Below are positions 3,110 through 36,277 of a stretch of 64,000 bases of DNA, piece after piece (within the stretch, counting starts at the first letter, position 1; every line of letters starts with the position of its first letter). Origin of the DNA: Shinella lacus (lineage in GTDB: Bacteria; Pseudomonadota; Alphaproteobacteria; Rhizobiales; Rhizobiaceae); the NCBI RefSeq assembly GCF_010994755.1, contig NZ_WHSB02000022.1, positions 1 through 64,000 of the forward strand. The letters run 5' to 3'. Under the pieces are notes generated by a model. It was given only the letters and a program-made list of their open reading frames with translations. It was not told the DNA's origin and did not search any database. The position numbers and the translations under genes were made by a program.

Positions 3110-3490
3110 TCACACTGCGAGAGAGGCGGTGATCTCGATTTCGACTTTGGCTCCGCGTGCGGGGATTTGGCATATCAGGAACGTGCTGGTGGGCCGAATA
3201 TCCTTGAACACCTCTCCAAGGACCGGGCTTACGGCCTCGGCGGCTTCAAGATCCGTTACGTACACCCGGCTTGCCACCGCATTGGCGAGGCTTGCCCCCG
3301 CTTTCTGCAATGCGTCCTCGACGTCCGCGAACGCATTGCGCGCCTGGTCCGCGGCATCCGGAGGGAACAGGCCCGTTGCCTTGTCGCGCCCCGTCGTGCC
3401 GGACACATAGATCGTCGTCCCGTCGATCACGGCCTTGGCGTAGCCCGCGGTCGTTTCGGAAGGGGCACCGGAAAAGATTCTCTTTGGCAT
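3110..3490 (-). CDS. RidA/YjgF/UK114-family protein (module A)
   Basis: A 126-aa Rid-family protein. Members form trimers with active sites at the subunit interfaces, and many hydrolyse enamine/imine intermediates or are 2-aminomuconate-type deaminases. The start at 3490 has GGAGACAAGA in front and matches its paralog at 35894 (both begin with a short lead, then RIFSGAPSE). By eye the paralogs are about 60 percent identical. The arginine that anchors the substrate carboxylate in classical RidA appears replaced (RPTSTFLICQIP). It is the last gene of the operon running from 9020, behind a flavin amine oxidase whose imine product it could hydrolyse. Confidence 0.88.
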   Translation of the reverse strand: MPKRIFSGAPSETTAGYAKAVIDGTTIYVSGTTGRDKATGLFPPDAADQARNAFADVEDALQKAGASLANAVASRVYVTDLEAAEAVSPVLGEVFKDIRPTSTFLICQIPARGAKVEIEITASLAV

Positions 3491-3532
3491 TCTTGTCTCC
3501 ATGTCAGGCGGATCGGTTCGTTTGGATCGTTG

Positions 3533-4804
3533 TCAGAAGCGGGCCGGTGAGAGAGCCGAGATATCCACCGATGGGGATTGCCCCGCCGCAAGTTCGGCCA
3601 TGACTTTCCCGGCCATCGGTCCCAGTCCGAAACCATGGCCGCTAAATCCGGTTGCGACGAGAAGCCCTTCGACCGCCTCGACCTTGCCCATGACGGGAAC
3701 GACGTCGGGAAGGGTATCGATGATGCCGGCCCAAACGGTGTCGATGGCAACTTCCGCCAATGCCGGCAGGAACCTGCGCAATTCGGCCTGGGCCTGCCGG
3801 ACGCGATGAAGGGCGGGCTGCACGGCTTCGCGGGTGGGCGCGATATCCGCTATCGGCGCGGCGCGACGCGAGGGGACGAAGGGCTGGATGGGACCCAGAT
3901 AGTTGATCCGCGCCGCATCCGGATTGCCTTTTCTCGTCTCCCGATAATGGCGCATATACCGCCAGGAATCGAGCCGCACGTCATACTCTCCCCCCGCCAC
4001 CGACAAAACGATCGCTCCGTTCACATCCTGCCGAAGGCCGGTCTGCGGCAACGAGATACAGGGATCGATGGTCAAGTGCGGCACGGGCAGGGAGCGTGCG
4101 ACGGTTGCTCGTATTCTTTCCTGGGGAAGATCGTATCCGACCGCGCGCAGGAGCCTGCCGCTTCCCGTGCCGGCGGCGCAGAGAACCGTATCGGCGCGGT
4201 AAAGCCTGCCATCGATCCAGACGCCGTGAATGCGTCCGGCCTGGATATCCAGGCGCTTCACGCTCCCGCCGAGGACGACCGAGACGCCCCGCTCGACGGC
4301 GGCCTCGAACAGCGCACGCGTGGCGCGTCCCGGTTCCGCCCGCCCGTCCGAGGCGGTGAACATCGCGCCTCGAACGCCGGCCTTTTCCGAAAGGAAGGGG
4401 AGTTTTCCGGCAACCTCGGCCGGGGTCAGCAGTTCGGTATCGAGACCGAAGTCCTTCGCCTTGGCCTGCCAGTCCGCCTGATGGGCCACGTCCGCGTCAT
4501 TGACCGCCAGGACGATGTTGCCGCCGCAAAACCAGCCGACGCTGCGTCCGAGATCCTTTTCAAGACCGTTCCACAGGCGCAGCGAGGCCATGGCGAGAGG
4601 AAGCTCGCGGAAGTCCCGTCCCTGCTGGCGGACGAAGCCAAGATTGCGGCCGGATTGCGCGGAGCCCGGCGTGTCGCGCTCGACGAGCAGGACACGCAGG
4701 CCGGAACGCGCGGCATAAAGCGCCGCCGAGCACCCGACGATGCCGCCGCCGCCGACGATCAGATCCCATGCGTTCGATCCGTGAAGGTTTCCCCGAGCGC
4801 CCAT
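3533..4804 (-). CDS. FAD-dependent oxidoreductase, D-amino acid oxidase (DAO) fold
   Basis: A 423-aa DAO-superfamily flavoenzyme. The N-terminal dinucleotide motif is GGGGIVGCSAALYAARSG with an acidic residue at the end of the second strand (LLVERD). SAQSGRNLGFVRQQGR is a typical FAD contact, and the C-terminal FAD segment is GFSGHGFGLGPMAGK. The likely reaction is oxidation of an amino or imino acid to the imine with transfer to O2 or quinone. Its start codon directly follows the stop of the ABC ATPase gene, and RidA follows 42 bp later, suggesting import, oxidation, then imine hydrolysis. Substrate unknown. Confidence 0.88.
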   Translation of the reverse strand: MGARGNLHGSNAWDLIVGGGGIVGCSAALYAARSGLRVLLVERDTPGSAQSGRNLGFVRQQGRDFRELPLAMASLRLWNGLEKDLGRSVGWFCGGNIVLAVNDADVAHQADWQAKAKDFGLDTELLTPAEVAGKLPFLSEKAGVRGAMFTASDGRAEPGRATRALFEAAVERGVSVVLGGSVKRLDIQAGRIHGVWIDGRLYRADTVLCAAGTGSGRLLRAVGYDLPQERIRATVARSLPVPHLTIDPCISLPQTGLRQDVNGAIVLSVAGGEYDVRLDSWRYMRHYRETRKGNPDAARINYLGPIQPFVPSRRAAPIADIAPTREAVQPALHRVRQAQAELRRFLPALAEVAIDTVWAGIIDTLPDVVPVMGKVEAVEGLLVATGFSGHGFGLGPMAGKVMAELAAGQSPSVDISALSPARF

Positions 4805-5569
4805 TCAATGAACCTTCGCCATGAAGGAGCGGGTACGCTCGAAAGCGGCGCTGTTGAATATCTCGGAAGGCGCGCCCAGTTCCACGATCCTGCCTGCCTG
4901 CATGAAGGCAATGCGATTGCAGACCTCGCGCGCGAAGGACATCTCGTGGGTGACCACCATCATCGTAAGGCCCTCGTCCGCCAGGGATCGCATGACGTCA
5001 AGGACTTCCCCGACCAGTTCCGGGTCGAGCGCGCTGGTGGGCTCGTCGAAGAGCAGGACCTTGGGCTTCATCGCCAACGCCCGCGCGATGGCGACGCGCT
5101 GCTGCTGCCCGCCGGACAACATCCGGGGATAATTCTGCATCTTGTCGGCCAGGCCGACGCGCGCCAGAAGCTCGACCGCCAGCGCCTCGGCCTCCCGCCT
5201 TGCAATGCCGAGAACATGGACGGGCGCCTCCATGACGTTCTCGAGGGCGGTCTTGTGCCCGAACAGATTGAAGTTCTGGAACACCATTCCGATCCGCGCC
5301 CGCTGCCGGGCGATCTGTCTTTCCGACAGCTCGTAGGCAAAGTTTCCGTCACGCCGATAGCCGATCAGCTCCCCATCGACCGTGATGCTTCCCTGCTCGA
5401 TCCGTTCGAGGTGATTGACGCAGCGCAGGAGGGTCGACTTGCCCGAACCGGACGGGCCGATCAGGCTGATGACCTCGCCGGCCGCGACGTCAAGATTGAT
5501 GTCGTGCAGCACCGGCAAGCTGCCATATCTTTTCGACACCCGGTCAAAGACAATCATCGGATCTGACAT
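4805..5569 (-). CDS. Polar amino-acid type ABC transporter ATP-binding protein
   Basis: A 254-aa ATPase of the GlnQ/HisP class. Walker A is GPSGSGKST, the Q-loop VFQNFNLF, the signature LSGGQQQR, Walker B VLLFDEPTSALD and the switch histidine is in VVTHEM. It powers import by the adjacent permease and periplasmic binding protein. The gene abuts the permease stop without a gap. The family usually carries basic or polar amino acids, opines or related compounds. The true substrate here is probably the compound oxidised by the downstream flavoenzyme. Confidence 0.93.
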   Translation of the reverse strand: MSDPMIVFDRVSKRYGSLPVLHDINLDVAAGEVISLIGPSGSGKSTLLRCVNHLERIEQGSITVDGELIGYRRDGNFAYELSERQIARQRARIGMVFQNFNLFGHKTALENVMEAPVHVLGIARREAEALAVELLARVGLADKMQNYPRMLSGGQQQRVAIARALAMKPKVLLFDEPTSALDPELVGEVLDVMRSLADEGLTMMVVTHEMSFAREVCNRIAFMQAGRIVELGAPSEIFNSAAFERTRSFMAKVH

Positions 5570-6481: not shown

Positions 6482-6513
6482 GATCGCTGTCTCTCAATAG
6501 TGGCCAGTCGGAT

Positions 6514-6541
6514 GCGGCCGGCGGCAGGGGCCACCGGCCGC
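6514..6541. repeat. GC-rich intercistronic stem-loop
   Basis: GCGGCCGG (6514-6521) pairs with CCGGCCGC (6534-6541) immediately after the binding-protein stop codon. No T-run follows. Hairpins at this position commonly stabilise the upstream message and attenuate the permease genes, keeping binding protein in excess. Confidence 0.6.
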
Positions 6542-6546
6542 GATTT

Positions 6547-7437: not shown

Positions 7438-7529
7438 GACGTGTTCCCCTTTTGTGGCCTCAGGTTGCCGACCAGCCACTCGGCCTGTTGTGGCTCGCCG
7501 TTGTGCCCCGATGAGATCGGCGTTTCGCT

Positions 7530-9020: not shown

Positions 9021-9085
9021 GGTCTCTCCTTTTCGCGGCATCAGGCAGCGCCTTAATCGCCATATCGATATCCGTTTTGATTAAA

Positions 9086-9095
9086 AATGATATTT
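9086..9095 (+). promoter_or_regulatory. Half-conserved HutC-type operator before the ALDH operon
   Basis: AATGATATTT lies 66 bp upstream of the ALDH start and repeats the left half of the perfect palindrome at 9269. It is probably the operator through which the divergent HutC regulator controls the transport/oxidation operon. Inference from motif recurrence only. Confidence 0.45.
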
Positions 9096-9268: not shown

Positions 9269-9280
9269 AATGATATCATT
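9269..9280. promoter_or_regulatory. Perfect 12-bp palindrome, candidate HutC operator
   Basis: AATGATATCATT is self-complementary and lies 9 bp upstream of the HutC gene at 9290. Related sequences occur before the divergent ALDH operon (9086) and before the paralogous regulator (12764). Inverted repeats of this size are usual for GntR/HutC repressors. Autorepression and cross-regulation are inferred. Confidence 0.6.
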
Positions 9281-9289
9281 TTGGAGGAC

Positions 9290-10048
9290 ATGGTGGCGCT
9301 AGACCAGCCCCTGTACGAGCGGATCAAAAGCGCAATCGATCGCCGTATCGAGACCGAGGAATGGCCGCCCAACTTTCAAGTCCCTTCGGAAGAGGATCTT
9401 GCCAGCGAATTCGGCGCGTCCCGCCTCACCGTGCGCCGGGCCCTGCGCGAGCTGCAGACGGACGGCGTGCTGCTACGCGTCCAGGGGCGCGGCACCTTCG
9501 TCATCGGCCCGCGCATGCAATGCGCCGTGTTCAATCTCGCCGACATATCGGAGGAGATCGCTTTCGGCGGTGGCGCCCATAGCTGCCGGCTCCTCCGGCA
9601 TTCGGCCCTCACCAGGGACGATCCCGGCTGGAACATGCTCCAGCTTGGCGCCGAGGACACCGTTTTCCATTCGCGCCTGCTTCATCTGGAGGACGGCAGC
9701 CCGATCCAGCTGGAAGACCGCTATGTGAATGCCGCGGAGGCGCCGGACTATATCGAGCAGGATTTCTCGAAGGTGAGCCCGCACGGCTGGCTGCTGCGCG
9801 AGACCATCGTCACGACCGTCGACAACACGATCCGTTCCATCCGCGTCGACGACGAAACCCGTCTTAACCTGCAGATCGGCGCCGACCAGCCGTGCCTCCT
9901 GCTGGACCGCTCGACCTGGCGCGACGGCATTCCCGTCACGCGCAGCCGTTTCATCTATCCCGGCGACCGCTACCGCATGCGCTCCCGGCACGAGGCGCGC
10001 ACCAACCGCATCGTCACCATCCCCGCCCTATCCGGAACAAGCCGCTGA
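9290..10048 (+). CDS. GntR-family (HutC/UTRA) transcriptional regulator, copy 1
   Basis: An N-terminal winged helix (LYERIKSAIDRRIE; SEEDLASEFGASRLTVRRALREL; GVLLRVQGRGTFV) is joined to a C-terminal UTRA ligand domain ending in RSTWRDGIPVTRSRF-YPGDRY. These repressors usually sense a pathway metabolite. The ATG at 9290 is used; a GTG at 9293 or TTG at 9281 is also possible, because GGAGG at 9283 is very close. It is the first gene of a plus-strand operon with UbiD and UbiX and is divergent from the ALDH/ABC operon. About two thirds identical by eye to the regulator at 11977. Confidence 0.9.
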   Translation: MVALDQPLYERIKSAIDRRIETEEWPPNFQVPSEEDLASEFGASRLTVRRALRELQTDGVLLRVQGRGTFVIGPRMQCAVFNLADISEEIAFGGGAHSCRLLRHSALTRDDPGWNMLQLGAEDTVFHSRLLHLEDGSPIQLEDRYVNAAEAPDYIEQDFSKVSPHGWLLRETIVTTVDNTIRSIRVDDETRLNLQIGADQPCLLLDRSTWRDGIPVTRSRFIYPGDRYRMRSRHEARTNRIVTIPALSGTSR

Positions 10049-10071
10049 AGCCTTGGCAGAAGGAGCCGCCC

Positions 10072-11397
10072 ATGAGAAATTTCGTTCGCACACTCCAGGA
10101 GCGCGGGGACCTGCTGGTCGTCGACCGCGAGATCGACCCGGCCCATGAGCTCGCCGCCGTCACCCATCTCGCGCAGAAGAAATGGGCCAAGCCCGTGATG
10201 TTCACCAATGTGAAGGGCACGCGCTTTCCCGTGGTCACCAATGTCTACAGCACCCGCGAGCGGCTGGGCGAGGTGATCGGCATCGACGCGAACGACTTCT
10301 GCCGGCAGTGGAGCAAGCTTTCCTCGCTCGGCTCGGCCGAGATGCGCGACCCCCTCGTTCCGGCGAACGAGACCCCGGAATACGAGGAGGTCAGGCTCTC
10401 CGACCTGCCGCTGATCACCTATTCGGACCGCGACGGCGCCCCCTATTTCACCTCCGCCATGTTCATCGCCAAGGATCCCGAGACCGGGGTGGGCAACCTC
10501 TCCTATCACCGCTCGATGTTCATCAGCGACAACGAGCTGCGCTGCCGCCTCGCCCCGCGCCACCACCTGACGATCTACCACGAGAAGGCCGAGAAGATGG
10601 GCCGGCCGCTCGAGGCCGCCATGCTGATCGGCCCGCCGGCCCACGCCTTCCTGACCGCCGCCGCCCCCCTGCCCTACGACGTGGACGAGCTGGAAGTGGC
10701 CGCGCGGCTGCGCGGCACGCCGATCGCCATGCGCAAATGCAACCATATCGACCTTGAGGTTCCCGCCGAGACCGAGGTGGTGATCGAGGGCCGGTTCCTG
10801 CCCAACGAGCGCCGCCCGGAAGGTCCGTTCGGCGAGTTCATGGGCTATTACGTCCCGGTCGGTCCCAACGCCGTCTTCGAGGTGCTCGGCGTCACCGTGC
10901 GCAAGGACGCCATGTTCCATTCGATCCTCTGCGGCTCGCCCGAGGAGGTGCTGACGCTGGAGCTTTCCGTCTCGGCCAATATCTACCAGCGGCTGAGCGC
11001 GGCGCTTCCCGGCATCGTCAACGTGACCTGCCAGCCCTTCGTCAACCACGCCATCGTGCAGATCGAGCCGCAGTTCGAAGGCCATGCGCGCCAGGTCATG
11101 CTGGCGACCATCGGCGCCGAGCCCATCTGGGCCAAGCAGATCACCGTCGTCGATACGGATGTCGACATCTACGACATGGACGACGTGCAATGGGCGATCC
11201 TGACCCGCTGCCGCCCGGACAAGGACACGCTCGTCATTCCCGAGACCCCGTCCTTCTACCGGGACGAGGCCAAGGATCACTGGGGACGCCTGCTGGTCGA
11301 CGCTACCAAGCCCTGGGGACGGGAGGAGGAATTCGAGCGCAAGCGGCTGCGCATGGTGAACGACATCCGTCTCTCCGACTGGTTCGCAGGCGCCTGA
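10072..11397 (+). CDS. UbiD-family prenylated-FMN-dependent decarboxylase (module A)
   Basis: A 441-aa member of the UbiD/Fdc family, which reversibly decarboxylates aromatic or alpha,beta-unsaturated acids using prenylated FMN. The conserved arginine segment is NLSYHRSMF and the glutamate pair lies in PEGPFGEFMGYY. AAGGAG precedes the ATG at 10072. UbiX follows 3 bp after the stop, as expected for a cofactor-supplying partner. The setting (amino-acid importer, amine oxidase, RidA, ALDH) argues for a catabolic acid rather than ubiquinone biosynthesis. It resembles the UbiD at 33923. Confidence 0.92.
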   Translation: MRNFVRTLQERGDLLVVDREIDPAHELAAVTHLAQKKWAKPVMFTNVKGTRFPVVTNVYSTRERLGEVIGIDANDFCRQWSKLSSLGSAEMRDPLVPANETPEYEEVRLSDLPLITYSDRDGAPYFTSAMFIAKDPETGVGNLSYHRSMFISDNELRCRLAPRHHLTIYHEKAEKMGRPLEAAMLIGPPAHAFLTAAAPLPYDVDELEVAARLRGTPIAMRKCNHIDLEVPAETEVVIEGRFLPNERRPEGPFGEFMGYYVPVGPNAVFEVLGVTVRKDAMFHSILCGSPEEVLTLELSVSANIYQRLSAALPGIVNVTCQPFVNHAIVQIEPQFEGHARQVMLATIGAEPIWAKQITVVDTDVDIYDMDDVQWAILTRCRPDKDTLVIPETPSFYRDEAKDHWGRLLVDATKPWGREEEFERKRLRMVNDIRLSDWFAGA

Positions 11398-11400
11398 CCA

Positions 11401-11984
11401 TGAGCACGCGGCGGCTGATTGTCGGAATCACGGGGGCTTCGGGTGCGGCCTATGGCATCCGCGCCCTGGAGCTTGCGCGGGCGGCGGGGATGGAAACCCA
11501 CCTCGTCGTCAGCCGCTCGGCCCTTCTCACGCTGAACCAGGAGCTCGGCCTGCAGAAGGCCGATCTCGAAGGCCGGGCCGATGTGATCTACCCGGTCGCC
11601 GATATCGGCGCGACGATCGCCAGCGGATCGTTCCGCACCATGGGAATGCTCATCGCCCCCTGTTCCGTGCGGACCATGTCGGAGATCGCCACGGGCGTGA
11701 CCTCCACCCTGATGAGCCGGGCCGCCGACGTGGTGCTGAAGGAGCGCCGGCGCCTCGTGCTCATGCTGCGCGAGACGCCGCTGCATCTGGGGCATATCGA
11801 GACGATGGCGGCGCTCACCCGGATGGGGGCCATCGTCATGCCCCCCGTTCCCGCCTTCTATGCCAGGCCGCAAAGCATCGACGAACTGGTCACCCATTCC
11901 AGCGCCCGCGCCCTCGACCTTTTCGACATCGATACCGGCGCCGTCCGGCGCTGGGGTGGGCTGAAGGACAGCCTCCTCACTTGA
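11401..11984 (+). CDS. UbiX-family flavin prenyltransferase (module A)
   Basis: It makes prenylated FMN from FMN and dimethylallyl (pyro)phosphate for the adjacent UbiD. The 194-aa protein has the FMN-binding start [33 protein letters not shown], and [21 protein letters not shown], all hallmarks of the family. The start lies 3 bp after the UbiD stop. Its 3' end overlaps the convergent HutC copy 2 by 8 bp. A paralog is at 29749. Confidence 0.93.
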
Positions 11985-12750
11985 ACTTCTTGAGCCCCCT
12001 GGGTGCCAAGGGTCCACTTGCGTTGACCATGCGGTTCTGGCGCGCTTCGTGCGAGCTGCGCAGCCGATAGCGATCGCCGGGATAGAGGAAGCGGCTGCGG
12101 GTCACCGGCGTCCCGTCGCGCCAGGTCGACCGGTCCAGCAGGAGACAGGGCTGGGTACTGTCGATCTGCAGGAGCCGGCACGCCTCCTCGTCCGGCCGGA
12201 TGGCGCGGATCGTATTGTCCACGGATGTCACCGTCGTCTCGCGAAGCAGGTAGGCGTGCGGCGTAATCTTGGTGAAGTCCTGCTCCAGGAATAACGGGGC
12301 CTCGCTCGCATTGACGTAGCGATCCTCGAGCTGGATCGGCGTGCCGTCCTCCAGGTGCAGCAGCCGCGCATGAAAGACGACGCCGTCCGGCCCCAGGGCC
12401 AGCATGTTGGATTGCGGGTCACCTCGCGGCACCGCGCCGAGCTCGATCACCCTGCAGGCATGGGCGCCGCCGTTGAGCGCGATTTCCTCGGCCATGTCGG
12501 AGATATTGAAGATGGCGCATTGCATGCGCCGGCCGACCACGAATGTGCCGCGCCCCTGAATGCGGATGAGGACGCCCTCGGCCTGCAATTCACGCAAGGC
12601 GCGTCTCACCGTCAGCCTGGACGCCCCGAACTCCTCCGCAAGCTCGACCTCCGCCGGAACCTGGTATTCAGCGGGCCACTCCTCCGCCTCGACACGGCGA
12701 TCGATCGTCGCTTTTATCTTCTCATAGAGGTGCTGATCGGGTTCGGGCAT
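11977..12750 (-). CDS. GntR-family (HutC/UTRA) transcriptional regulator, copy 2
   Basis: A 257-aa paralog of the regulator at 9290 with the same layout: winged helix (EVELAEEFGASRLTVRRALREL, IQGRGTFVVG) then UTRA domain (LHLEDGTPIQLEDRYVNASEAP, RSTWRDGTPVTRSRF). It converges on and slightly overlaps UbiX. An AATGATATC half-palindrome lies 13 bp before its start. Two related repressors flanking one UbiD-UbiX pair suggest a duplication with two effectors or a cross-regulatory loop. Confidence 0.9.
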   Translation of the reverse strand: MPEPDQHLYEKIKATIDRRVEAEEWPAEYQVPAEVELAEEFGASRLTVRRALRELQAEGVLIRIQGRGTFVVGRRMQCAIFNISDMAEEIALNGGAHACRVIELGAVPRGDPQSNMLALGPDGVVFHARLLHLEDGTPIQLEDRYVNASEAPLFLEQDFTKITPHAYLLRETTVTSVDNTIRAIRPDEEACRLLQIDSTQPCLLLDRSTWRDGTPVTRSRFLYPGDRYRLRSSHEARQNRMVNASGPLAPRGLKKFK

Positions 12751-12929: not shown

Positions 12930-13412
12930 TCAGCCCCCTGCAAGCGACCATACGGCATCCGCGATGAGGCGGGCTTGTGGCACCTCTTCCGGCAGAGTGC
13001 AGCCGGCGAAACGTTCGAGAACCATATGTGCGACGAGGTTGATCCGCGCTCGCCCCTCCTCTTGACCTTCATCGCGCGGCAGATCGGCGATCGCTTCCTC
13101 CAGCACCGCGACCTCCAGCTTCTCGGCGTCCAGTAGCGCCTTGAGTTCCGAGCGGAAAGACACAACCGGTGGGTGGCTCTCCATCCAGGGATTAGCCTTT
13201 AGCTGCACCCTGATCGCGCGCAGGGGGCGGACGACCTCTGCACGCCATCGGCGGCAGTTCTCGTCAAGGTTCCGAATCGCGTCGGAATCAATGTGGCTGC
13301 CTTTCCCGGCCGCTTGGAGCACCGCAAGGAGCAACGGTACGTCAAGTTCAAACCTCTCCTGCAATTCTAAGCACGCCTGGGCGACGCCCGGCTTTGCATA
13401 GACCTTCAGCAT
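12930..13412 (-). CDS. TIGR02444 (DUF2390) family protein, 5' end probably shortened
   Basis: A 160-aa protein of unknown biochemical function. The family start is normally HPxWDFxxxLYARPGVAxACLxLQE. Here the ATG falls at MLKVYAKPGVAQACLELQERFELDVPLLL, so the first 10 or so residues are absent. This fits truncation at the border of the accessory island. A full-length relative (35248) overlaps the UbiD gene of module B, so the association with UbiD recurs. GTG at 13415 is an alternative start. Confidence 0.75.
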   Translation of the reverse strand: MLKVYAKPGVAQACLELQERFELDVPLLLAVLQAAGKGSHIDSDAIRNLDENCRRWRAEVVRPLRAIRVQLKANPWMESHPPVVSFRSELKALLDAEKLEVAVLEEAIADLPRDEGQEEGRARINLVAHMVLERFAGCTLPEEVPQARLIADAVWSLAGG

Positions 13413-13744
13413 CACGGTTCACAAATCGGTACCAACGAAAGCTTCAACCATTATGTATTTCCTCGCCTATGGCTCTCTATCGTGGCGCACACAACCGTCG
13501 ATGGCTCGTGTACTGTACATCGGCAACGAAAACATACGCAAAATCACCTCCGTCGGTCTTGTCGTGGGTTGATGTTCGACGAACGCAGGATCACTCATTC
13601 TTCCGTGAGCTCCTAACAAATTGCGGTGTCGGTAGAGCGTGAATGCAGCTTGAAATCGTGGTCTCTCATGCTACCCTCGCGTCAGTAATCTCCTATGGAA
13701 CACCTTTGACAGTAATGTCTGTGTCCTCCTCCCACGCAATCGTG
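13413..13744. other. Gene-free stretch at the border of the accessory island
   Basis: No coding region that I can support. It separates the 5'-shortened TIGR02444 gene from the IS5-type remnant and has lower GC content than the flanking operons. Confidence 0.4.
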
Positions 13745-22928: not shown

Positions 22929-22943
22929 CGACCGGAGGACGTG

Positions 22944-23723: not shown

Positions 23724-23725
23724 CC

Positions 23726-24640
23726 TTGATCGATATTTTCAATGCGTGGGTGGCGATGATTCCAGCCACGCTGGCGCAAAGCCTGATCCTGTCGTTTGTC
23801 GTGATGGCGGTGATGCTGCCGTTCAGAATCCTCAGCTTTCCCGACCTGACCTCGGAAGGCAGCTACCCGCTCGGCGGCTGTGTCTGCGCCATGACGCTGG
23901 TCGCGGGCGCCCCGCCGCTGGTCGCCCTGCTGGCGGCGGCGGCGGCGGGCTTTCTGGCGGGATGCCTGACCGCCTTCATTCATCTGCGCTTCCGCATCCA
24001 CACCCTGCTGGCCGGAATCCTCATCACGACGATGCTCTATAGCATCAACCTGCGGATCATGGGCAAGGCCAATACGCCACTGTTTCAGGAAACCAAGATA
24101 TTCGGCTGGCTCGCGGATGTGGGACTCACCGACAGCTGGGTCAAGATCGTCCTCGTCGGAGCCATGATCCTGTTGCTGGCGCTGGCGCTGAATCTCTGGT
24201 TCCTGACCGAGCACGGCACGGCGATGCGCGCCGTCGGCGCCAATGCGGAGATGGCCGAGGCGCAGGGTATCAACGTCTGGGGCGTGACGATCGGGGGCGT
24301 CGGCCTTGCCGGGGCCTGCGCGGCCTTCGGCGGCGGCTTGATGGCGCAGAGCCAGAGCTTTGCCGATGTCAACATGGGTCTCGGCGTGCTGATCAACGCG
24401 CTGGCGGCTCTGATGATCGGGGAAGGACTGATCGGCCGTAAAACCATCCAGCGACAGATCGCGGCGGTTGTTGTCGGCGCGGTGGTATACTACCAGCTCA
24501 TTTCGGTTTGTCTCGCCGTCGGCCTGCCGCCGGGGGATCTGAAGATCGCCACAGGCGTCTTCGTCCTCATCATGCTGGCCGCGCCGAGCCTCGGCCTGAA
24601 GCGGGCCGGTGCGCAGCCAAAGGAATGTTTCAAGGAATGA
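23726..24640 (+). CDS. ABC transporter permease, TrpY-like
   Basis: A 304-aa BPD_transp_2 membrane protein with about eight helices. The family segments FPDLTSEGSYPLGG and GTAMRAVGANAEMAEAQGIN (ATPase-coupling loop) are present. It starts with TTG at 23726, two bases after the previous stop and behind GGGAG. It completes the aromatic-amino-acid type importer. Confidence 0.9.
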   Translation: MIDIFNAWVAMIPATLAQSLILSFVVMAVMLPFRILSFPDLTSEGSYPLGGCVCAMTLVAGAPPLVALLAAAAAGFLAGCLTAFIHLRFRIHTLLAGILITTMLYSINLRIMGKANTPLFQETKIFGWLADVGLTDSWVKIVLVGAMILLLALALNLWFLTEHGTAMRAVGANAEMAEAQGINVWGVTIGGVGLAGACAAFGGGLMAQSQSFADVNMGLGVLINALAALMIGEGLIGRKTIQRQIAAVVVGAVVYYQLISVCLAVGLPPGDLKIATGVFVLIMLAAPSLGLKRAGAQPKECFKE

Positions 24641-28610: not shown

Positions 28611-29672
28611 TCAGGTCTTTCCGGCGCGGGCCAGCTTTTGCCGCGCCTGGTTGGGGGTAACGCCGAAATGGCCGCGAAACGCGGAGGTGAAGCTGGCCTG
28701 ATGGCGAAAGCCCACCGCCGAGGCGACGGCGGCGATGGAGGTTTCGTCCTCGGCCAGAAGTTCCATGGCACGATCCATCCGGTGACGGTTGCGATAGGCG
28801 AAGATCGTTGTGCCGTAGAGCAGGCGAAAACCGCTTTTCAGTTTGGTGGTGTTGGTCCCGAGCTTCCGCGCCAGGCGGGGAATGGTCTGCGATTCGGAGA
28901 AATCGGTGGCCAGGACCTCGCGCGCACGCTCGAACATGGCCAGTTCCCGCGCCGTGAAAACGACCGATTGCTCCTCCGCCTTGCCGCCCCGCTCGAGCGC
29001 ATCGACGGAAAGGACGACGAGTTCCAGGATGCAGGCGAGCGCGCGCGGCAGTTCGCGGGGACCCTGGAAGTCGATTTCAAAGAGATCGCGCAGCCGCCGC
29101 AGGAAATCGGGATCGATCTGGCGCTCCATCATCGCCATCGTTCCCTCGTCGGGTGCGAACAGTTGCCGCATCCGGCTCTCCTGCGCATCTATGCCGAAAC
29201 TTTCGCGCAGCAGGGCGGGCTGGGCGTAGATGCTCACCATCTTGTAGGTTCCCGGCTGGCAGACGACGTCATAGGCCATTCCCGCCGCCTGCTGGCATAC
29301 CATCAACGAAACGTTGGCCGGCGCCTTCGCATCGTCCGCTTGCGGCAGCGACAGTTCAACCGGGCCTTCGAGCAGGATGTGGAACTCGAGCAGCCCGTCG
29401 GCGACCACGCGCTCATGACGCACCGTGAAATATTCGCAATCCGTCATGACGGCGAACAATCCGTCGCCGGGCGAAAGGAAGCGCCACGATCCCCTGCCCT
29501 CGCCCGGATCGAGATCCGCGCGGGCGTAGAACAGGCCGAGGCGCGTGTCGATCTTCCGATGCACATCGGCCGTCAGGAGGTTGCGGAATGCAGCGACGGT
29601 CGTTCCCTCGGGCCCTGCGAAACTGGCGCGGAACAGGCCTCTGTTCCGCGCGGTGGCGTCATTCTCAATCAT
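28611..29672 (-). CDS. AraC-family transcriptional regulator
   Basis: A 353-aa AraC/XylS activator. The two C-terminal helix-turn-helices are visible (TIPRLARKLGTNTTKLKSGFRLLYG; SIAAVASAVGFRHQASFTSAFRGHFGVTPNQAR). The N-terminal part would sense the inducer. It lies 76 bp after UbiX on the same strand and 155 bp before the flavoenzyme. It most likely controls the kynurenine/UbiD module B genes in response to a tryptophan metabolite. Confidence 0.88.
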   Translation of the reverse strand: MIENDATARNRGLFRASFAGPEGTTVAAFRNLLTADVHRKIDTRLGLFYARADLDPGEGRGSWRFLSPGDGLFAVMTDCEYFTVRHERVVADGLLEFHILLEGPVELSLPQADDAKAPANVSLMVCQQAAGMAYDVVCQPGTYKMVSIYAQPALLRESFGIDAQESRMRQLFAPDEGTMAMMERQIDPDFLRRLRDLFEIDFQGPRELPRALACILELVVLSVDALERGGKAEEQSVVFTARELAMFERAREVLATDFSESQTIPRLARKLGTNTTKLKSGFRLLYGTTIFAYRNRHRMDRAMELLAEDETSIAAVASAVGFRHQASFTSAFRGHFGVTPNQARQKLARAGKT

Positions 29673-29748
29673 CCATTTCTCCGGCCGCGTTCGCGCGGGC
29701 CAGGCAATCTAGCATCTATCGGAAAAAATTTGCATGGGACTCCTGGCG

Positions 29749-30321
29749 TTAGCCGGGCTCTTTCCAACGCCGCGCCAAACCGTTGTCGATCCCGAACAGA
29801 TCGAGCACGCGGCCGATCGAGTGGTCGATCATCTCGTCGAGGCTATTCGGCTTGGCATAGAAGGCCGGCAGCGGCGGTGCGATGACGGCGCCCATTTCCG
29901 CAAGCTGCGTCATGGTGCGCAAGTGCCCCAGATGCAGCGGCGTCTCCCGCACCATCAGCAAGAGGCGGCGACGCTCCTTCAGCGTGACGTCGGCGGCGCG
30001 CGTCAGCAGGCCCGAGGTCACGCCGGTGGCGATCTCCGACATGGAGCGCACCGAGCAGGGCGCGACGATCATGCCCATGGTGCGGAAGGAACCGGAGGAT
30101 ATCCCCGCGCCGATATCCGTCTGCGCATGCCAGTGGGCGGCGAGCGCCCGCACCTCGGCGACCTTGAGGTCGGTCTCGTGCGCCAGCGTGATCTCGGCGG
30201 AGCGGGACATGACGAGATGCGTCTCGACGCCCGCCTCGCCGAGCGCCGTCAGCAGGCGCACGCCATAGATGACGCCCGACGCGCCGGAAATGCCGACGAC
30301 GATGCGCCTCGCCCCGCTCAA
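29749..30321 (-). CDS. UbiX-family flavin prenyltransferase (module B)
   Basis: A 190-aa prenyl-FMN synthase: [37 protein letters not shown] and [20 protein letters not shown]. It starts with TTG at 30321, sharing TTGA with the TDO stop, so translation is coupled to the dioxygenase. Its decarboxylase partner is the UbiD gene at 33923 on the other strand. The coupling places prenyl-FMN supply under kynurenine-pathway control. Confidence 0.9.
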
Positions 30322-31151
30322 AGGTCGGTCCTGACATTCCAGAGTTCGGGAAACAGCACGACCTCCAGCATCTTGCGCAGGTAGGAAACCCCGCCGGTGC
30401 CGCCGGTTCCGCGCTTGAAACCGATAATGCGCTCCACCGTGGTCACATGGTTGAAGCGCCAGCGGCGGAAATAATCCTCGAAGTCGATCAGTTTCTCGGC
30501 CAGCTCGTAAAGCGGCCAGTGGCGTTCGGGATCGGCATAGACCTGCCGCCAGGCTTTCTGCACCTTGGGATTGATGGCGCGGGCCTGCCGGATATCGGCG
30601 CGCGGCTCGTCGCCGACATCGAAGCCGTTGCGCGCTAGCAGCGCGATCGCCTCGTCGTAGATCGATTTTTGCGAGAGGATGCCTTCCAGCGTCTCGATGA
30701 TCTCGGCCCGGTGCTCATGCGGCCGCAGCATCGCGAGATTGCGGTTGCCCGCGAGATATTCGATGGCCCGGTACTGCCAGGACTGGAAGCCGGAGGATTG
30801 CCCCAGCGAGGGCCGCATGATGTTGTATTCGGAGGGCGTCATGGTGCGAAGCACGTCCCAGGCCGAATTCAACTGATCGAAGATGCGCGCCACCCGCGTC
30901 AGCATCTTGAAGGCCGGTTGCAAGCGGTCCTCGCTGATTGCTTGTGCCGCCGAGCGCATTTCGTGGATGGCGAGCTTCATCCACAGTTCCGAAGTCTGGT
31001 GCTGGACGATGAACAGCAGTTCGTCATGCGCTTCGGACAGGGGCTGCTGCGCGCTGAGCACCTGATCCAATTGCAGATAGTCCCCGTAGGACATTTTCCG
31101 CGAGAAGGACATTTGCGCGCCTTCGACGGCGGGATCATAGGGTTGCGTCAT
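30318..31151 (-). CDS. kynA: Tryptophan 2,3-dioxygenase
   Basis: A 277-aa heme dioxygenase that opens the indole ring of L-tryptophan to N-formylkynurenine. Family blocks: [29 protein letters not shown] (heme-pocket His51), [24 protein letters not shown] with the proximal His region, and a C-terminal block [19 protein letters not shown]. The start at 31151 overlaps the kynureninase stop (ATGA), so the two are co-translated. Upstream in-frame extensions lack family similarity. Confidence 0.96.
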
Positions 31152-32341
31152 GTCACGGCAGCCTTGCGATGGTAATCGGGATTGTCCCAAAGGCGCTTGT
31201 CCAGCACCTCGGCGAGAATGGCGACGGCCCTGTCGATATCCGACGGGCCGATATAGAGCGGCGTGAAGCCGAAGCGCATGGAATCGGGCGCGCGAAAATC
31301 GCCGATCACGCCCCGGTCGATCAAGGCCTGCATGACCGCATAGGCGTGCGGATGGCGGAAGGACACCTGGCTTCCGCGCCGGGCGGGATCGCGCGGGCTG
31401 CCCAGCTCCAGCCCCGGACAGGCGGCCTCCACCCCGGCGATGAACCGCTCGGACAGTTCGATGGAGCGGGCGCGCACGTCGCGCATGTCGATCCCTTCCC
31501 ACGCGTCGAGGGCGGCGTCGAGCACGGTGAGCGCGATGACCGGCGGCGTGCCGACACGCATCCGCTCGATTCCCGGCGCGGGACGGTAGTCGAGATCGAA
31601 GGCGAAAGGCGCTTCATGGCCCATCCAGCCGGAGAGGCTTGGACGCGCCCGCTCTGCATGGCGCGGCGCGACATAGATGAAGGCCGGAGCGCCCGGCCCG
31701 CCATTCAGATATTTATAGGTGCAGCCGACCGCGAAATCCGCATCCGCCCCGGTCAGGTCGACATCGACCGCGCCGGCGGAATGGGCGAGATCCCAGATCG
31801 CCAGCGCGCCCGCCGCATGGGCGGCGGCGGTGATGCGCTTCATGTCGTGGCGCCGGCCGGTACGGTAATCGACCTCGGTGATCAGCGTCGCCGCCACGCT
31901 CCCGTCGATGGCGTCCTCCATCGCCTCCGGCTCCACCACCTTGAGCTCGTATCCACGCCCGAGCGCGGCCAGAAGGCCCTGCGCCACATAAAGATCGGAC
32001 GGGAAGTTGCCGCTGTCGGAGAGCACCACGCGCCGCTCCGGATTGAGGCCGAGGGCCGCCGACAATGCCTGGTAGACCTTGATGGAAAGCGTATCGCCCA
32101 TCACCACCGTGCCGGGGGCGGCACCGATCAACTTGGCCACCCGGTCCCCCACCTTGCGCGGCTGCACGTACCAGCCGGCGCTGTTCCAGCCGCGGATAAG
32201 CTCGTTGCCCCATTCCTCGGCCAGCATCCGGGCAAGGCGCTCTCCGGCGGCGACGGGAAGCGGACCGAGCGAATTGCCGTCCAGGTAGACAACCCCTTGA
32301 GGCAGGTGGAAGACGGCGCGGGTGGCGGAGAAGTCGGTCAT
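31148..32341 (-). CDS. kynU: Kynureninase
   Basis: A 397-aa PLP enzyme that cleaves kynurenine to anthranilate and alanine. [11 protein letters not shown] at the start, [31 protein letters not shown], and the PLP lysine K210 in [15 protein letters not shown] are diagnostic. It lies 15 bp after the ALDH stop and overlaps TDO. It links tryptophan breakdown to the anthranilate-CoA operon from 41766. Confidence 0.96.
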
Positions 32342-32356
32342 GGGGAAAGTCCTGGA

Positions 32357-33748
32357 TCAAGCGGCCACGGAACGGATGACGATCGCCTTCTTTCGCAGGA
32401 ACCGGCCGAAACCGCCATAGCCGTAGCGCGTGCCGCCAAGGCCCGAGCAGCCGAAGGCGGTCTTTTCCGCGCGCGCGCCGACGCCGCCCATCGTGTCGAA
32501 ATCGTTGATCCACATGCCGCCGGCATTGATGCGGCTGCCGATGGCGATGGCCTTTTCCTCCGCCCCGATCACGGCGGCGGAGAGGCCGAATTCCGTGTCG
32601 TTGGCAAGCCGGACGGCCTCTTCCTCGGTGTCGAAGGCCATGATCGGGACGATGGGGCCGAAGGTCTCGTCGCGCATGACGGCCATGTCCTGCCTGACGT
32701 TCACCAGCACGGTCGGCTCGCACCACAACCCGCCGCCATGCTCGACGATATTGCCGCCGGTCAGCACCTGCGCGCCCTTGGCGAGCGCGTCGGCAAGCTG
32801 GGCGCGCAGGATCTCCGCCTGGCGGGCGAAGATGACCGGCCCCAGTTCGCCGGACTTGATATCGTCCGTGTTCATCTTCAGCGCCTGCATGCGCTCGACC
32901 ACGCGGGCGCAGACCGCGTCATAGACGCCGCGCTGCACATAGACGCGCTCGATGGCGCAGCAGAGCTGGCCGGAATTCTCGACCGACCCGCGCACGATGA
33001 TCTCCGCCGCGAAATCCGATTCGGCGCTGTCCAGCACCACGGCGGGGTCGCTGCCGCCAAGCTCGAGGAACACGGTCTTGAACTGCGAGGCGGCCTGCTG
33101 CTGCACCTTGCGGCCGGTCGCGACCGACCCGGTGAAGACCAGCGTGTCGGTGAGATCGACCACCATCGCACCCGTCTCGCCGTCGCCCTCGAACACATCG
33201 AGCACGTCGCGCAGATGCTCGACCTCGGCGATGGCCTTGCGGAACGGGGCGATGAAGCGCGGCGTCACTTCCGAAGGCTTGATCGCCACCGCCGAGCCGG
33301 CAAGCAGCGCCGTGATGGCGTCGATCATGCACAGGATCAGCGGATAGTTCCACGGCGAGACAATGCCGACCAGCTCATAGGGCACATATTGCTGCCGGAA
33401 GCGCAGCGTCGGATCGGAGGAATTGCCGCTCGCCTCCGCCATCGCCTCGGCGGCGGTGGCGCAGCGCATCCGGGTGATGCCCTTGAGGCCTTCGATTTCG
33501 TTGACCGACCATTCGTAGCGGCCGGTATCGGCGCACAGCGCCTGCAGGATCGCGTCGTAGTGCCGGTCGACGGCATCGCAAAGCGCGATCATCGCCTTGG
33601 CGCGCCCCTCGATGCCGAGCGCCTGCCAGGCGGGCTGGGCGGCGCGCAACTGCTTGCAGCGGGCCTCCAATGCCTCGCGGCTGAGCGGAGTGATCGTGTA
33701 ATCGTTCGCGCCGGTGCGCGGATTGCGAATGTCGAGCGTGCGGGCCAT
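32357..33748 (-). CDS. Aldehyde dehydrogenase (module B)
   Basis: A 463-aa ALDH. The general base is in FLELGGSDPAVVL, the nucleophile in GQLCCAIERVYVQ, the cofactor segments are GIVSPWNYPL and FTGSVATGRKV, and GCSGLGGTRYGYGGFGRFLRKK ends the protein. It matches short ALDHs of the succinate-semialdehyde/benzaldehyde type. GAGAGG precedes the ATG at 33748. It is the first gene of the operon ALDH-kynU-TDO-UbiX and is divergent from UbiD. Not a known kynurenine step, so it more likely serves the UbiD branch. Confidence 0.9.
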   Translation of the reverse strand: MARTLDIRNPRTGANDYTITPLSREALEARCKQLRAAQPAWQALGIEGRAKAMIALCDAVDRHYDAILQALCADTGRYEWSVNEIEGLKGITRMRCATAAEAMAEASGNSSDPTLRFRQQYVPYELVGIVSPWNYPLILCMIDAITALLAGSAVAIKPSEVTPRFIAPFRKAIAEVEHLRDVLDVFEGDGETGAMVVDLTDTLVFTGSVATGRKVQQQAASQFKTVFLELGGSDPAVVLDSAESDFAAEIIVRGSVENSGQLCCAIERVYVQRGVYDAVCARVVERMQALKMNTDDIKSGELGPVIFARQAEILRAQLADALAKGAQVLTGGNIVEHGGGLWCEPTVLVNVRQDMAVMRDETFGPIVPIMAFDTEEEAVRLANDTEFGLSAAVIGAEEKAIAIGSRINAGGMWINDFDTMGGVGARAEKTAFGCSGLGGTRYGYGGFGRFLRKKAIVIRSVAA

Positions 33749-33922
33749 GGGGCAATTCCTCTCTGATCTGACCGGAGCATGGCCCAGCATCGCCTCGCGG
33801 CAAAGGGGCGGCCGCACCCCTAAAACCGAATTCCAAAAAAATTGGGCGGGCAAGATAAAAGGGATGGCTGTTGCCCGCCGCCGCAACGGGGTTAACCTGA
33901 AGCATCGAACAAGGAGACGATT

Positions 33923-35251
33923 ATGCGGCGATTCATCGACGATCTTGCCCGGCGGGGCGAACTTGCCACGGTGCGCCGGCCTGTCGATCCGCGCCATCAG
34001 CTCGCCGCCGTCACCAAGGCCGTCCAGAAAGCCGGCGAAAAGGCCGTGTTGTTCGAAGCGGTCGAGGGAACGGTCTTTTCCGTCGTCTCCAATCTCTACG
34101 GCAGCCACGACCGGCTTTGCCGGCTGGTCGGCGCCACCGACAAGACCTTCTGCCAGCGCTGGATCGAGCTGACCGACGCCTGCATCGCCAGCCGCGACGC
34201 CGATGTGCTGGAACCGGCTCCGGACGCGGTGGAGGCGGAGTTCGTCTCGGGCACCTTGTCCGACCTGCCGGCCATCACCTATCACGGGTGCGATGCCGGG
34301 CCTTACTTCACCTCGGCGATCTTCCTGGCGCGCGAGCCCGACAGCGGCGTTCCCAACCTCTCCTTCCACCGCTCCATGCATGTGTCCGACGACGAGCTGC
34401 GGGTGCGCCTTGGCTCGACGCACGATCTCGCCCGCTATCAGGCCAAGGCGGAATCGCGCGGCGAGGCGCTGGAGGCGGCGCTGCTCCTGTCCTGCCCGCC
34501 GGAAATCTTCCTCTCCGCCTGCGCCTCGCTGCCCTATGAGGCATCCGAGCTGGTGATGGCCGCGCAGATTGCCGGCGGCAAGATCCCGATGCGCCGCTGC
34601 AAGACCATCGATCTCGACGTTCCCGCTTCCGTCGACATCGTCGTGGAAGGCCGCTTCCTGCCCAACGTCAAGCGGCCGGAAGGCCCGTTCGGCGAGTTCA
34701 TGGGCAACTATGTCGGCGTCGGCGACAATCACGTCTTCGAGGTGACCCATGTGAGCTGGCGGCCGGGCGCGGTCTTCCATGCGCTGGTCTGCGGCTCGCC
34801 GGAGGATCTGCGGCCGCTGGAAGCCGTCACAGCCGCGCGCGTCTATCGCCATGTCGCGGCGCAGGTGCCGGGCGTCATAGACGTCTGCTGCCGCCCGAAC
34901 GTAATGATCTCGATCATCAAGATCCGCAAGACCTACGAGGGCCAGGGCAAGCACGCCATCCTCGCAGCGCTCGGCTCCTATCTCGATTACAACAAGGTGG
35001 TGATCGTGGTGGACGAGGATGTGGACATCTACGATCTCGACGACGTGATGTGGGCCTATATGACCCGAGGACGCGCCGATACACGCGCCATGATCCTCAA
35101 CGATGTTCCGGGCTTCTACCGCGACCCGCACAAGGATCACTGGGGGAGGCTCTGCATCGACGCCACCATGCCTTTCGGCCGCGAGGCGGAATTCGCCCGC
35201 AAGTCCATTCCCGGCGAAGACGGCATCGATCTTCGCGAATGGCTCGCATGA
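33923..35251 (+). CDS. UbiD-family prenylated-FMN-dependent decarboxylase (module B)
   Basis: A 442-aa UbiD/Fdc-type decarboxylase clearly related to the one at 10072: NLSFHRSMHVSDDELRVRLG with the catalytic Arg, VEGRFLPNVKRPEGPFGEFMGNY with the two catalytic Glu, and KDHWGRLCIDATMPFGR near the end. AAGGAGACGATT precedes the ATG. It is divergent from the ALDH-kynU-TDO-UbiX operon and overlaps the TIGR02444 gene by ATGA. Substrate unknown; an indole-, pyrrole- or aminobenzoate-type acid would fit the setting. Confidence 0.92.
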   Translation: MRRFIDDLARRGELATVRRPVDPRHQLAAVTKAVQKAGEKAVLFEAVEGTVFSVVSNLYGSHDRLCRLVGATDKTFCQRWIELTDACIASRDADVLEPAPDAVEAEFVSGTLSDLPAITYHGCDAGPYFTSAIFLAREPDSGVPNLSFHRSMHVSDDELRVRLGSTHDLARYQAKAESRGEALEAALLLSCPPEIFLSACASLPYEASELVMAAQIAGGKIPMRRCKTIDLDVPASVDIVVEGRFLPNVKRPEGPFGEFMGNYVGVGDNHVFEVTHVSWRPGAVFHALVCGSPEDLRPLEAVTAARVYRHVAAQVPGVIDVCCRPNVMISIIKIRKTYEGQGKHAILAALGSYLDYNKVVIVVDEDVDIYDLDDVMWAYMTRGRADTRAMILNDVPGFYRDPHKDHWGRLCIDATMPFGREAEFARKSIPGEDGIDLREWLA

Positions 35252-35775
35252 GCAGGTTTCCCGAACATCCCGCCTGGGATTTCATCACCCGCCTCTATGC
35301 CCGGCCGGACGTCGCACCCGCCTGCCTTGCGCTGCAGGAGCGCCACGACATCGACGTGACGCTGATGCTGTTCTGCCTGTGGCGCGGGACTGTCGGCGGC
35401 AGCATCCCGGATGGAGAGATGGCCGCGCTGGCGGCAGCCGCGCGGGACTGGCGCGAAGCGACCGTCCTGCCGATCCGCGCCGCCCGGCGCTGGCTGAAGC
35501 AGCAGCCGGAACAATACGGCCTCTATGCCAGCGTGCTGGCGACGGAAATCGATTGCGAACATGGCGAATTGCTGATGCTGGCGCAGCTCGCCGGTTCGCT
35601 CGACTGCAAGGGACAGCCGGCGGCGGAAACGATGGCCGCCAACCTCGAGACGTTCTTCCACGCCTGGGGCGTCCGGCCGGACGAACAGGACCGGCCGGCC
35701 GTGGCCGCGATCCTCGCTGCCGCCAAGGCCATGGCCGAGGCCAGGCGCGCTCCGCCACAACAGCCGGTCACGTAA
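35248..35775 (+). CDS. TIGR02444 (DUF2390) family protein
   Basis: A 175-aa helical protein of unknown activity. The family start is complete here (FPEHPAWDFITRLYARPDVAPACLALQERHDIDVTLMLFCLWRG). The ATG overlaps the UbiD stop, so it is co-translated with the decarboxylase. A 5'-shortened relative occurs beside the other UbiD-UbiX set (12930). The recurrent pairing suggests a helper role for UbiD-type decarboxylation, for example stability or cofactor loading. That role is inferred only from context. Confidence 0.85.
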   Translation: MSRFPEHPAWDFITRLYARPDVAPACLALQERHDIDVTLMLFCLWRGTVGGSIPDGEMAALAAAARDWREATVLPIRAARRWLKQQPEQYGLYASVLATEIDCEHGELLMLAQLAGSLDCKGQPAAETMAANLETFFHAWGVRPDEQDRPAVAAILAAAKAMAEARRAPPQQPVT

Positions 35776-35893
35776 AACAAGCGCCCGATCGCGCAAGTCC
35801 CGGCCATTCCTTGCTCATGCAAATCCGGCGAAAGTGCCGGCGCGGTTCAGCGGAACCGTTTCAAGACCAAGCAAGAGCGAGGAGTTTGCCAGC

Positions 35894-36277
35894 ATGAAGA
35901 ACCGGATTTTCTCAGGAGCGCCGTCGGAAGACTTCGCCGGATATGCCAAGGCGGTGATCGACGGTCCGACGATTTACGTATCCGGTACGATGGGCCAGGA
36001 CCCCGATACAGGCGCGATGCCGGAGGGTGTCGCCGAGCAGGCGCGCAACGCGCTCGCCTCGATCGGCAAGGCGCTCGAAGCCGCCGGCGCGGGCCTGAAG
36101 AACGCCGTGGCCTGCCGCGTCTATATCACCGACGGCTCTTATCTGAAGGACGTGGCGACGGTGCTCGGCGAGACGTTCCGCGATATCCGGCCGACCAACA
36201 CCCTGCTGATCTGCCAGTTGCCCGCCCCCGGCGCGAAGATCGAGATCGAGCTGACCGCCTCCACCCGCGCGGAATGA
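35894..36277 (+). CDS. RidA/YjgF/UK114-family protein (module B)
   Basis: A 127-aa Rid protein close to that at 3110 (RIFSGAPSE, GYAKAVIDG-TIYVSGT, ICQLPAPGAKIEIELTA). The classical carboxylate-binding Arg position appears to be Asn (RPTNTLLICQLP). The ATG at 35894 follows GAGGAG. It is 118 bp behind the TIGR02444 gene, and a bidirectional terminator hairpin follows at 36288. Probable deamination of an enamine formed in the UbiD/ALDH pathway. Confidence 0.9.
   Translation: MKNRIFSGAPSEDFAGYAKAVIDGPTIYVSGTMGQDPDTGAMPEGVAEQARNALASIGKALEAAGAGLKNAVACRVYITDGSYLKDVATVLGETFRDIRPTNTLLICQLPAPGAKIEIELTASTRAE

Follow-up and report, generated by a model that had tools for sequence, protein, structure and literature searches.

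Two separately conserved UbiD-UbiX modules in Shinella lacus, and a candidate accessory protein of the prenylated flavin system

When the same kinds of genes are found twice in one stretch of DNA, in two different orders, is this one functional unit that has been rearranged, or two units that have some of their parts in common? The question is raised by 64,000 nucleotides from Shinella lacus (assembly GCF_010994755.1, contig NZ_WHSB02000022.1, positions 1-64,000, forward strand), here called the window. A sequence-only reading of this DNA had proposed that a UbiD decarboxylase, a UbiX flavin prenyltransferase, a TIGR02444 protein, a RidA protein, an aldehyde dehydrogenase (ALDH) and a flavin oxidase are present in each of two modules, A (3110-13415) and B (27136-36277), in different gene orders and under different regulators. 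All of this is found. Profile matches place the six parts in both modules, the orders differ, and the regulators are a HutC protein (over the TIGR02018 cut-off) in A and an AraC-family protein in B.

Broadly, then, the finding holds, but what it describes is two conserved modules. The explanation that we favor, with a confidence somewhat above even, is that two distinct catabolic modules, each conserved in its own right and centred on a UbiD-UbiX pair, lie in the window. Here, module B would be part of a tryptophan-kynurenine-anthranilate locus, module A would be part of histidine-type metabolism, and TIGR02444 would be an accessory protein of the UbiX/UbiD system, which works through prenylated flavin mononucleotide (prFMN).

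How alike are the two modules? In module A, the minus strand carries RidA, a DAO-family oxidase, an ABC transporter and ALDH_A; the plus strand carries HutC, UbiD_A and UbiX_A; a second HutC-like regulator and TIGR02444_A are again on the minus strand. In module B, ALDH_B, kynureninase, tryptophan 2,3-dioxygenase (TDO), UbiX_B, AraC and the flavoenzyme FAD_B are on the minus strand, and UbiD_B, TIGR02444_B and RidA_B are on the plus strand. The UbiD, UbiX and RidA pairs are paralogous, as had been claimed, with identities of 49%, 63% and 66%. Both UbiDs have the N, central and C domains and exceed the TIGR00148 cut-off of 244.85 (317.7 and 295.2 bits). Both RidA proteins meet PF01042 only, falling below the cut-off of 106.25 for TIGR00004, the Rid detoxifying hydrolase profile (56.8 and 59.0 bits). 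The TIGR02444 pair is 37% identical. The ALDHs and the flavoenzymes are alike at the family level only: ALDH_A and ALDH_B are distant relatives (32% identity), and the two flavoenzymes belong to separate Pfam families, DAO (PF01266) in A and Amino_oxidase (PF01593) in B. The view that the same set occurs twice holds for the paralogues and not for these. The original list of genes was, in addition, incomplete. It omitted kynureninase and TDO, which lie between ALDH_B and UbiX_B, a PF04392-type transporter and an ACMR/CoA-thioester locus.

Do these sets recur elsewhere? A scan of genome contigs with both UbiDs found 177 relatives, and the 80 best among them were analysed; their neighbours were assigned by phmmer and clustering, and each kind was given its name from the Pfam and NCBIfam matches of a single representative. 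The UbiD tree was made by a quick method and has several long branches. It places UbiD_A and UbiD_B apart, in clades with different genera, each accompanied by its own ALDH, flavoenzyme, transporter and regulator. Because the separate clades hold their own partner sets, we view these as two conserved units, not as one set in two orders. The functional unit of the sequence-only reading survives to the extent that UbiD, UbiX, ALDH, flavin oxidase and TIGR02444 do recur together; it does not survive as one unit in two shuffled copies. That reading had also asked whether the two UbiDs belong to distant clades with unrelated known substrates. They do belong to different clades, and a substrate was found for neither.

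The loci were counted in four groups (A, first B, Burkholderia-type B, and the rest), which were drawn after the tree had been seen, its labels showing partners, and the Fisher values given here are for this reason descriptive. Four loci that share a 22-row fork with the first B group (L027, L029, L035 and L066) are counted in the rest. Left out of the counts are UbiX-profile matches on frames overlapping the end of UbiD, TIGR02444 in L024, RidA matches below 100 bits (L020, L021, L022, L063), and a fragment of a thiamine pyrophosphate (TPP) enzyme in L072. The 22 loci of the A clade have UbiX (22), a HutC-type GntR regulator (18), TIGR02444 and ALDH_A (17 each), DAO (13), a family-3 binding protein (12), urocanase (7) and RidA (6). 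The first B group (17 loci) has UbiX (13), ALDH_B (12), AraC (10), FAD_B (9), TIGR02444 and RidA (8 each), TDO and kynureninase (5 each) and ACMR (3). ALDH_B, FAD_B, AraC and a PF04392-type binding protein are in all 11 Burkholderia-type loci and UbiX is in 10, with TIGR02444 and RidA in none. Among the remaining 30, UbiX is found in 7, ALDH in 5, FAD_B in 3, urocanase in 2, RidA and the TPP enzyme in 1 each, and TIGR02444 in 0. Because 20 of these 30 loci are shorter than 20 kb, the counts were repeated on loci of at least 20 kb. There, A and first B together differ significantly from the rest (descriptive Fisher) in TIGR02444 (22/34 versus 0/10), UbiX (30/34 versus 3/10) and ALDH (26/34 versus 2/10), and not in RidA (13/34 versus 1/10, p 0.13). 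Thus, the co-occurrence that had been proposed as a check is upheld for most of the parts, with RidA as only an occasional member.

Other genes are seen in these loci. The TPP enzyme that accompanies UbiD is of the NF006052 family; the host genome has two strong members of this family (C33:159044-160702 and C24:346678-348348), with no UbiD in the 20-kb stretches around them. Two UbiD genes are adjacent or close in single loci (L030; L075 and L077; contig 22 of G060). A hydantoinase B / oxoprolinase family gene lies near UbiD in L036, L038, L039, L042 and L046, and an Asp/Glu/hydantoin racemase family gene is found in 11 of the 80 loci, of both types.

The strongest new result is the link between TIGR02444 and the prFMN system, which is a matter both of co-inheritance and of gene coupling. 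The sample was 190 genomes of one class, taken as Alphaproteobacteria, counted by genome and uncorrected for the species tree. TIGR02444 is in 61 of these, UbiD (TIGR00148) in 85 and UbiX over its cut-off in 80. Every one of the 61 carriers has a UbiD match, versus 24 of 129 non-carriers (p 2e-30). Two carriers, G099 and G127, have partial UbiD matches only, at contig ends; a stricter count gives 56/58 carriers versus 26/132 others. UbiX is found in 59/61 versus 21/129. The genes are also neighbours: 24 of the 61 genomes have TIGR02444 no more than 350 bp away from UbiX (tail to tail in 21 of these), and 32 have it within 15 kb. The three copies in the host are all within 5 kb of a UbiD. Caulobacter has the protein too. 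Samples were also drawn from the phylum and from the host family; the samples overlap, and these two were counted by eye. In the phylum sample (249 genomes), all 34 over-cut-off carriers have UbiX over its cut-off, as do at least 165 of the 249 overall; of five weaker carriers, G249 is without UbiX and G210 has a weak UbiX only, among the matches listed. In the host family, again among the matches listed, UbiX over its cut-off is in 3/3 carriers versus 1/8 non-carriers. The third UbiD of the host (C6:68223-72453, locus L008), with TIGR02444 2.6 kb away, belongs to a cluster with molybdenum hydroxylase subunits, XdhC, IclR, TctC-type receptors and an enoyl-CoA hydratase.

What might TIGR02444 do? 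Because it is present in both modules and travels with UbiD and UbiX in related bacteria, it is probably a helper of the decarboxylase system, most likely in the delivery or maturation of the cofactor. Two papers (PMC10865409, PMC13040415) describe small proteins that activate UbiD enzymes, LpdD (a prFMNH2 chaperone) and PhdC/YclD (a prFMN maturase). The first, on LpdD, anticipates that maturation factors will prove more diverse and suggests an as yet unidentified prFMNH2 chaperone for E. coli (PMC10865409). TIGR02444 is likened to these proteins on account of its co-inheritance and gene linkage. Its predicted fold may differ from theirs. The AlphaFold model of TIGR02444_B (mean pLDDT 95) is all-alpha, with seven helices, and a Foldseek search against PDB gave no match at E below 1 (best E 1.1), in a library that may or may not include LpdD and PhdC entries. 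Residues Y17, Q30, D36, W68, R77, R80 and E104 are invariant in 22 aligned TIGR02444 sequences. A literature text search, judged by title, found no functional paper on TIGR02444/DUF2390. The maturation of prFMN in UbiD enzymes is an open question, and TIGR02444 is a candidate factor in many genomes of one class. The copy in module A may be shortened or decaying, because there is an in-frame TGA (13421-13419, minus strand) and its open frame begins late, beyond the W and F that are near-invariant at the N-terminus of the family. One TGA is also present in the TIGR02444 of another genome of the class (G071).

What are the substrates? For module B, the overlaps within the operon (4 bp each between kynureninase, TDO and UbiX_B, with ALDH_B 15 bp from kynureninase) and the recurrence in relatives point to tryptophan, kynurenine and anthranilate. 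Downstream is an anthraniloyl-CoA-type locus (41766-54475) with genes for an AMP-dependent CoA ligase, MarR, an ACMR-type fusion, a short-chain dehydrogenase/reductase, an enoyl-CoA hydratase (ECH), two acyl-CoA dehydrogenases, a thioesterase, an ECH-HCDH protein and a thiolase. The fusion (44153-46471) joins FAD_binding_3 to OYE and scores 1362 bits with NF006101 (cut-off 1078); because that profile is named salicylyl-CoA 5-hydroxylase/oxidoreductase, anthraniloyl-CoA is its presumed substrate. The kynureninase scores 267.9 bits with TIGR01814 (cut-off 246.4). A cyclase-family formamidase is encoded elsewhere in the host genome (one PF04199 match). A 2-aminobenzoate (anthranilate) CoA pathway of Azoarcus evansii is cited in PMC3534580. 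That pathway likewise combines a CoA ligase, an ACMR fusion and beta-oxidation genes, and its cluster reportedly includes a "translation inhibitor" (RidA-type) gene; UbiD and UbiX are not known to be part of it. The Shinella locus differs in having TDO, kynureninase and a prFMN module attached.

Module A would be linked to histidine because its HutC is a true HutC (TIGR02018 equivalog, 251.7 bits, cut-off 220), its ABC transporter is of the polar-amino-acid type, and hut genes adjoin it in several relatives, with urocanase in the seven loci counted above and HutD, HutH, HutI or HutG in some. It thus resembles the hut (histidine utilisation) system in its regulator and in these neighbours; it differs in that HutH, HutU and HutI were not found among its scanned genes. 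A perfect palindrome, AATGATATCATT, is a candidate operator upstream of HutC, and a one-mismatch copy lies upstream of the second HutC-like gene (12764-12775). With at most one mismatch, it lies about 0.8-1.0 kb upstream of UbiD in nine A-type loci (L071, L079, L080, L082, L084, L085, L086, L087, L088). Half of the 18 A loci that carry a HutC-type gene gave no such site (L061, L062, L069, L072, L074, L076, L078, L081, L089), and one is present in two non-A loci, L042 and L045. Its count in the window is near chance (3 matches with at most two mismatches, 1.06 expected), so that only its place is conserved. The HutC consensus CTTGTNNNNACAAG was set aside, its two matches both being outside module A and at chance level. 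Together, the modules suggest that prFMN-type decarboxylases take part in catabolism linked to tryptophan and to histidine, a subject on which term searches of the open literature, judged by listing, found no paper.

Do the UbiD sequences themselves tell us more? In 82 aligned rows, the R and second E of the E-R-E residues are present in 82 and the first E in 81 (one D). The closest solved relatives of both UbiDs, alike in E-R-E and matched over nearly their full length, are 6h6v and AnInD, an indole-3-carboxylate decarboxylase. In PMC8988006, 6h6v is called HmfF (the furan-2,5-dicarboxylate decarboxylase), and AnInD D169 variants are severely impaired. This Asp is proposed to bind the indole NH. 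Its place is taken by Ala in 23/23 A rows and by Gly in 29/29 B rows, a clade-specific difference. H296 and R304 of HmfF, which we take to bind the second carboxylate, are replaced by Glu (23/23) and Val (23/23) in A rows and by Asp (29/29) and Thr (28/29) in B rows. Because D169, H296 and R304 are not kept, neither UbiD is of the AnInD or the HmfF type by these tests. An AnInD-type identity was accordingly rejected. An aminomuconate-type deamination with UbiD was also set aside: the genes scanned in the two modules included no ring-cleavage dioxygenase, and no paper on it was found.

What chemistry might be at work? Here, we infer the substrates and the order of steps from the gene content and linkages that are observed. 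In both modules, the flavoenzyme probably oxidizes a heteroaromatic amino acid or a derivative to an imine. RidA, where present, would hydrolyze an imine or enamine, the ALDH would oxidize an aldehyde, and UbiD would take CO2 off an acid that belongs to the same series and is either alpha,beta-unsaturated or heteroaromatic. In one possible order, the enamine tautomer of the imino acid would be decarboxylated before RidA and then ALDH act; the frequent TPP enzyme is unexplained under this order. In another, ALDH would act first and a ring carboxylate would be decarboxylated last. The scheme of the sequence-only reading (flavin-dependent C-N oxidation, enamine hydrolysis by RidA, aldehyde oxidation and prFMN decarboxylation) may hold as well.

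Several observations weigh against the reading of two such modules served by TIGR02444. The indole-binding Asp of AnInD is absent from both UbiDs. RidA is missing from 16/22 A loci as well as from all 11 Burkholderia-type loci, and UbiX was not found in 4/17 loci of the first B group. Only some members of the A clade have hut genes close to UbiD_A; the host is not one of these, its hut operon being on another contig. The TPP enzyme is in 10/11 Burkholderia-type, 4/17 first-group B and 5/22 A loci; were this an aryl-pyruvate decarboxylase, it would leave UbiD with a redundant step on that side chain. The counts that associate TIGR02444 with UbiD and UbiX are uncorrected for genome size. COQ9 is present in 58/61 carriers of TIGR02444 versus 75/129 non-carriers (p 3e-8), and in 77/85 UbiD genomes versus 56/105 others, which leaves room for a role in ubiquinone synthesis. 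UbiD can, further, do without TIGR02444, since 24/85 UbiD genomes and the E. coli control lack it. Lastly, of 23 over-cut-off carriers outside the class, none has UbiX within 50 kb among the matches listed (same contig in 12, the nearest at 52 kb; another contig in 11).

Might the link of TIGR02444 with UbiX and UbiD then reflect ubiquinone synthesis or inherited synteny, rather than prFMN chemistry? UbiD is a ubiquinone decarboxylase, one that UbiN can replace aerobically according to PMC10626278, and COQ9 has the association just described. Moreover, in 20 neighbourhoods (L090-L109) sampled among the 61 carriers by score and by length of contig, TIGR02444 is found with PurK in 14, COQ9 and PurE in 12 each, UbiX and PFK in 11 each, a GGDEF protein in 8 and deformylase in 6. 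Yet PFK, although it belongs to this locus, is not associated with TIGR02444 (28/61 carriers versus 69/129 non-carriers, p 0.35) or with UbiD (p 1.0). Within the 133 genomes with COQ9, the UbiD link is complete (58/58 carriers versus 19/75 non-carriers, p 2e-21). The host, with its three copies of TIGR02444, gave no COQ9 match, and in other genomes, too, copies of TIGR02444 lie in catabolic modules of the A and B kinds. We therefore regard an explanation by ubiquinone or synteny as possible, though on the unlikely side. The same might be said, a little less severely, of a different chemistry, where a heteroaryl aldehyde would arise from the oxidation of an amine or keto acid together with the TPP enzyme, ALDH would convert this aldehyde to a carboxylate, and UbiD would decarboxylate the ring, as HmfF and AnInD do. 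The nearest solved UbiDs do act on ring carboxylates, and in Burkholderia-type loci FAD_B lies close to the TPP enzyme. Conversely, Gly or Ala replaces D169, and an extra carbon-removing step would be needed because histidine and tryptophan have a CH2 between the ring and the amino-acid carbon.

A bolder version of the two-module reading proposes that heteroaromatic amino acids in general follow one route. The 2-imino acid would be made by a flavin oxidase, its cinnamate-like enamine tautomer would be decarboxylated by UbiD with prFMN, the vinylamine would be hydrolyzed by RidA, and the arylacetaldehyde would be oxidized by ALDH. Module A would do this for histidine-type and module B for tryptophan- or kynurenine-type substrates, and TIGR02444, a protein of a new fold, would act as chaperone or maturation factor of prFMN both here and for the ubiquinone UbiD. 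This much, taken together, seems quite improbable. More doubtful still is a patchwork, where generic catabolic genes have gathered in a catabolic island and UbiD and UbiX are unrelated to TDO, kynureninase and the flavoenzymes. Gene order and several partners do vary, with RidA, the TPP enzyme and transporters coming and going, but genes overlap and the clade-specific sets recur in several genera. A recent duplication of one module inside the host genome is scarcely credible. It would account for the paralogy of UbiD, UbiX and RidA, but the UbiDs are just 49% identical and group with different genera in separate clades, and the duplication was rejected as contradicted by the tree. The features on which the reading of two separately conserved modules is built are collected in Table 1.

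Table 1. Positions in the window of the genes and sites of modules A and B and their flanks.
Feature	Coordinates	Strand	Remarks
RidA_A, PF01042	3110..3502	-	profile match
DAO-family FAD oxidase, PF01266	3533..4804	-	PDB relatives: sarcosine oxidase, glycine oxidase, L-amino acid deaminase
ABC ATPase, read as part of polar-amino-acid type transporter	4805..5569	-	
ABC permease, PF00528	5570..6481	-	
Family-3 solute-binding protein, PF00497	6547..7437	-	
ALDH_A, PF00171	7530..9041	-	
Perfect palindrome AATGATATCATT	9269..9280	unstranded	candidate operator
HutC regulator	9281..10048	+	TIGR02018 over cut-off
UbiD_A, prFMN-type decarboxylase (by sequence)	10072..11397	+	E-R-E residues present
UbiX_A flavin prenyltransferase	11400..11984	+	2 bp beyond UbiD_A
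Second HutC-like GntR regulator	11977..12750	-	70% identity to first HutC
TIGR02444_A	12930..13415	-	N-terminally shortened
ABC transporter: PF04392 binding protein, ATPase, permease	21939..24640	+	upstream of module B
Alpha/beta hydrolase, PF12697	24699..25529	+	candidate formamidase, putative
FAD_B, amine-oxidase family flavoenzyme, PF01593	27136..28455	-	
AraC-family regulator	28611..29672	-	
UbiX_B	29749..30321	-	TTG start assumed
TDO, PF03301	30318..31151	-	4-bp overlaps with UbiX_B and with kynureninase
Kynureninase	31148..32341	-	TIGR01814 over cut-off
ALDH_B	32357..33748	-	15 bp upstream of kynureninase
UbiD_B, prFMN-type decarboxylase (by sequence)	33923..35251	+	E-R-E residues present
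TIGR02444_B	35248..35775	+	start codon overlaps UbiD_B stop by 4 bp
RidA_B	35894..36277	+	
Branched-chain-amino-acid type ABC transporter	36300..41423	-	
CoA-thioester locus, probably for anthranilate	41766..54475	+	downstream of module B

The window also encodes, at 16427-18292, an NhaA-type Na+/H+ antiporter with a fused C-terminal DsbA/thioredoxin domain.

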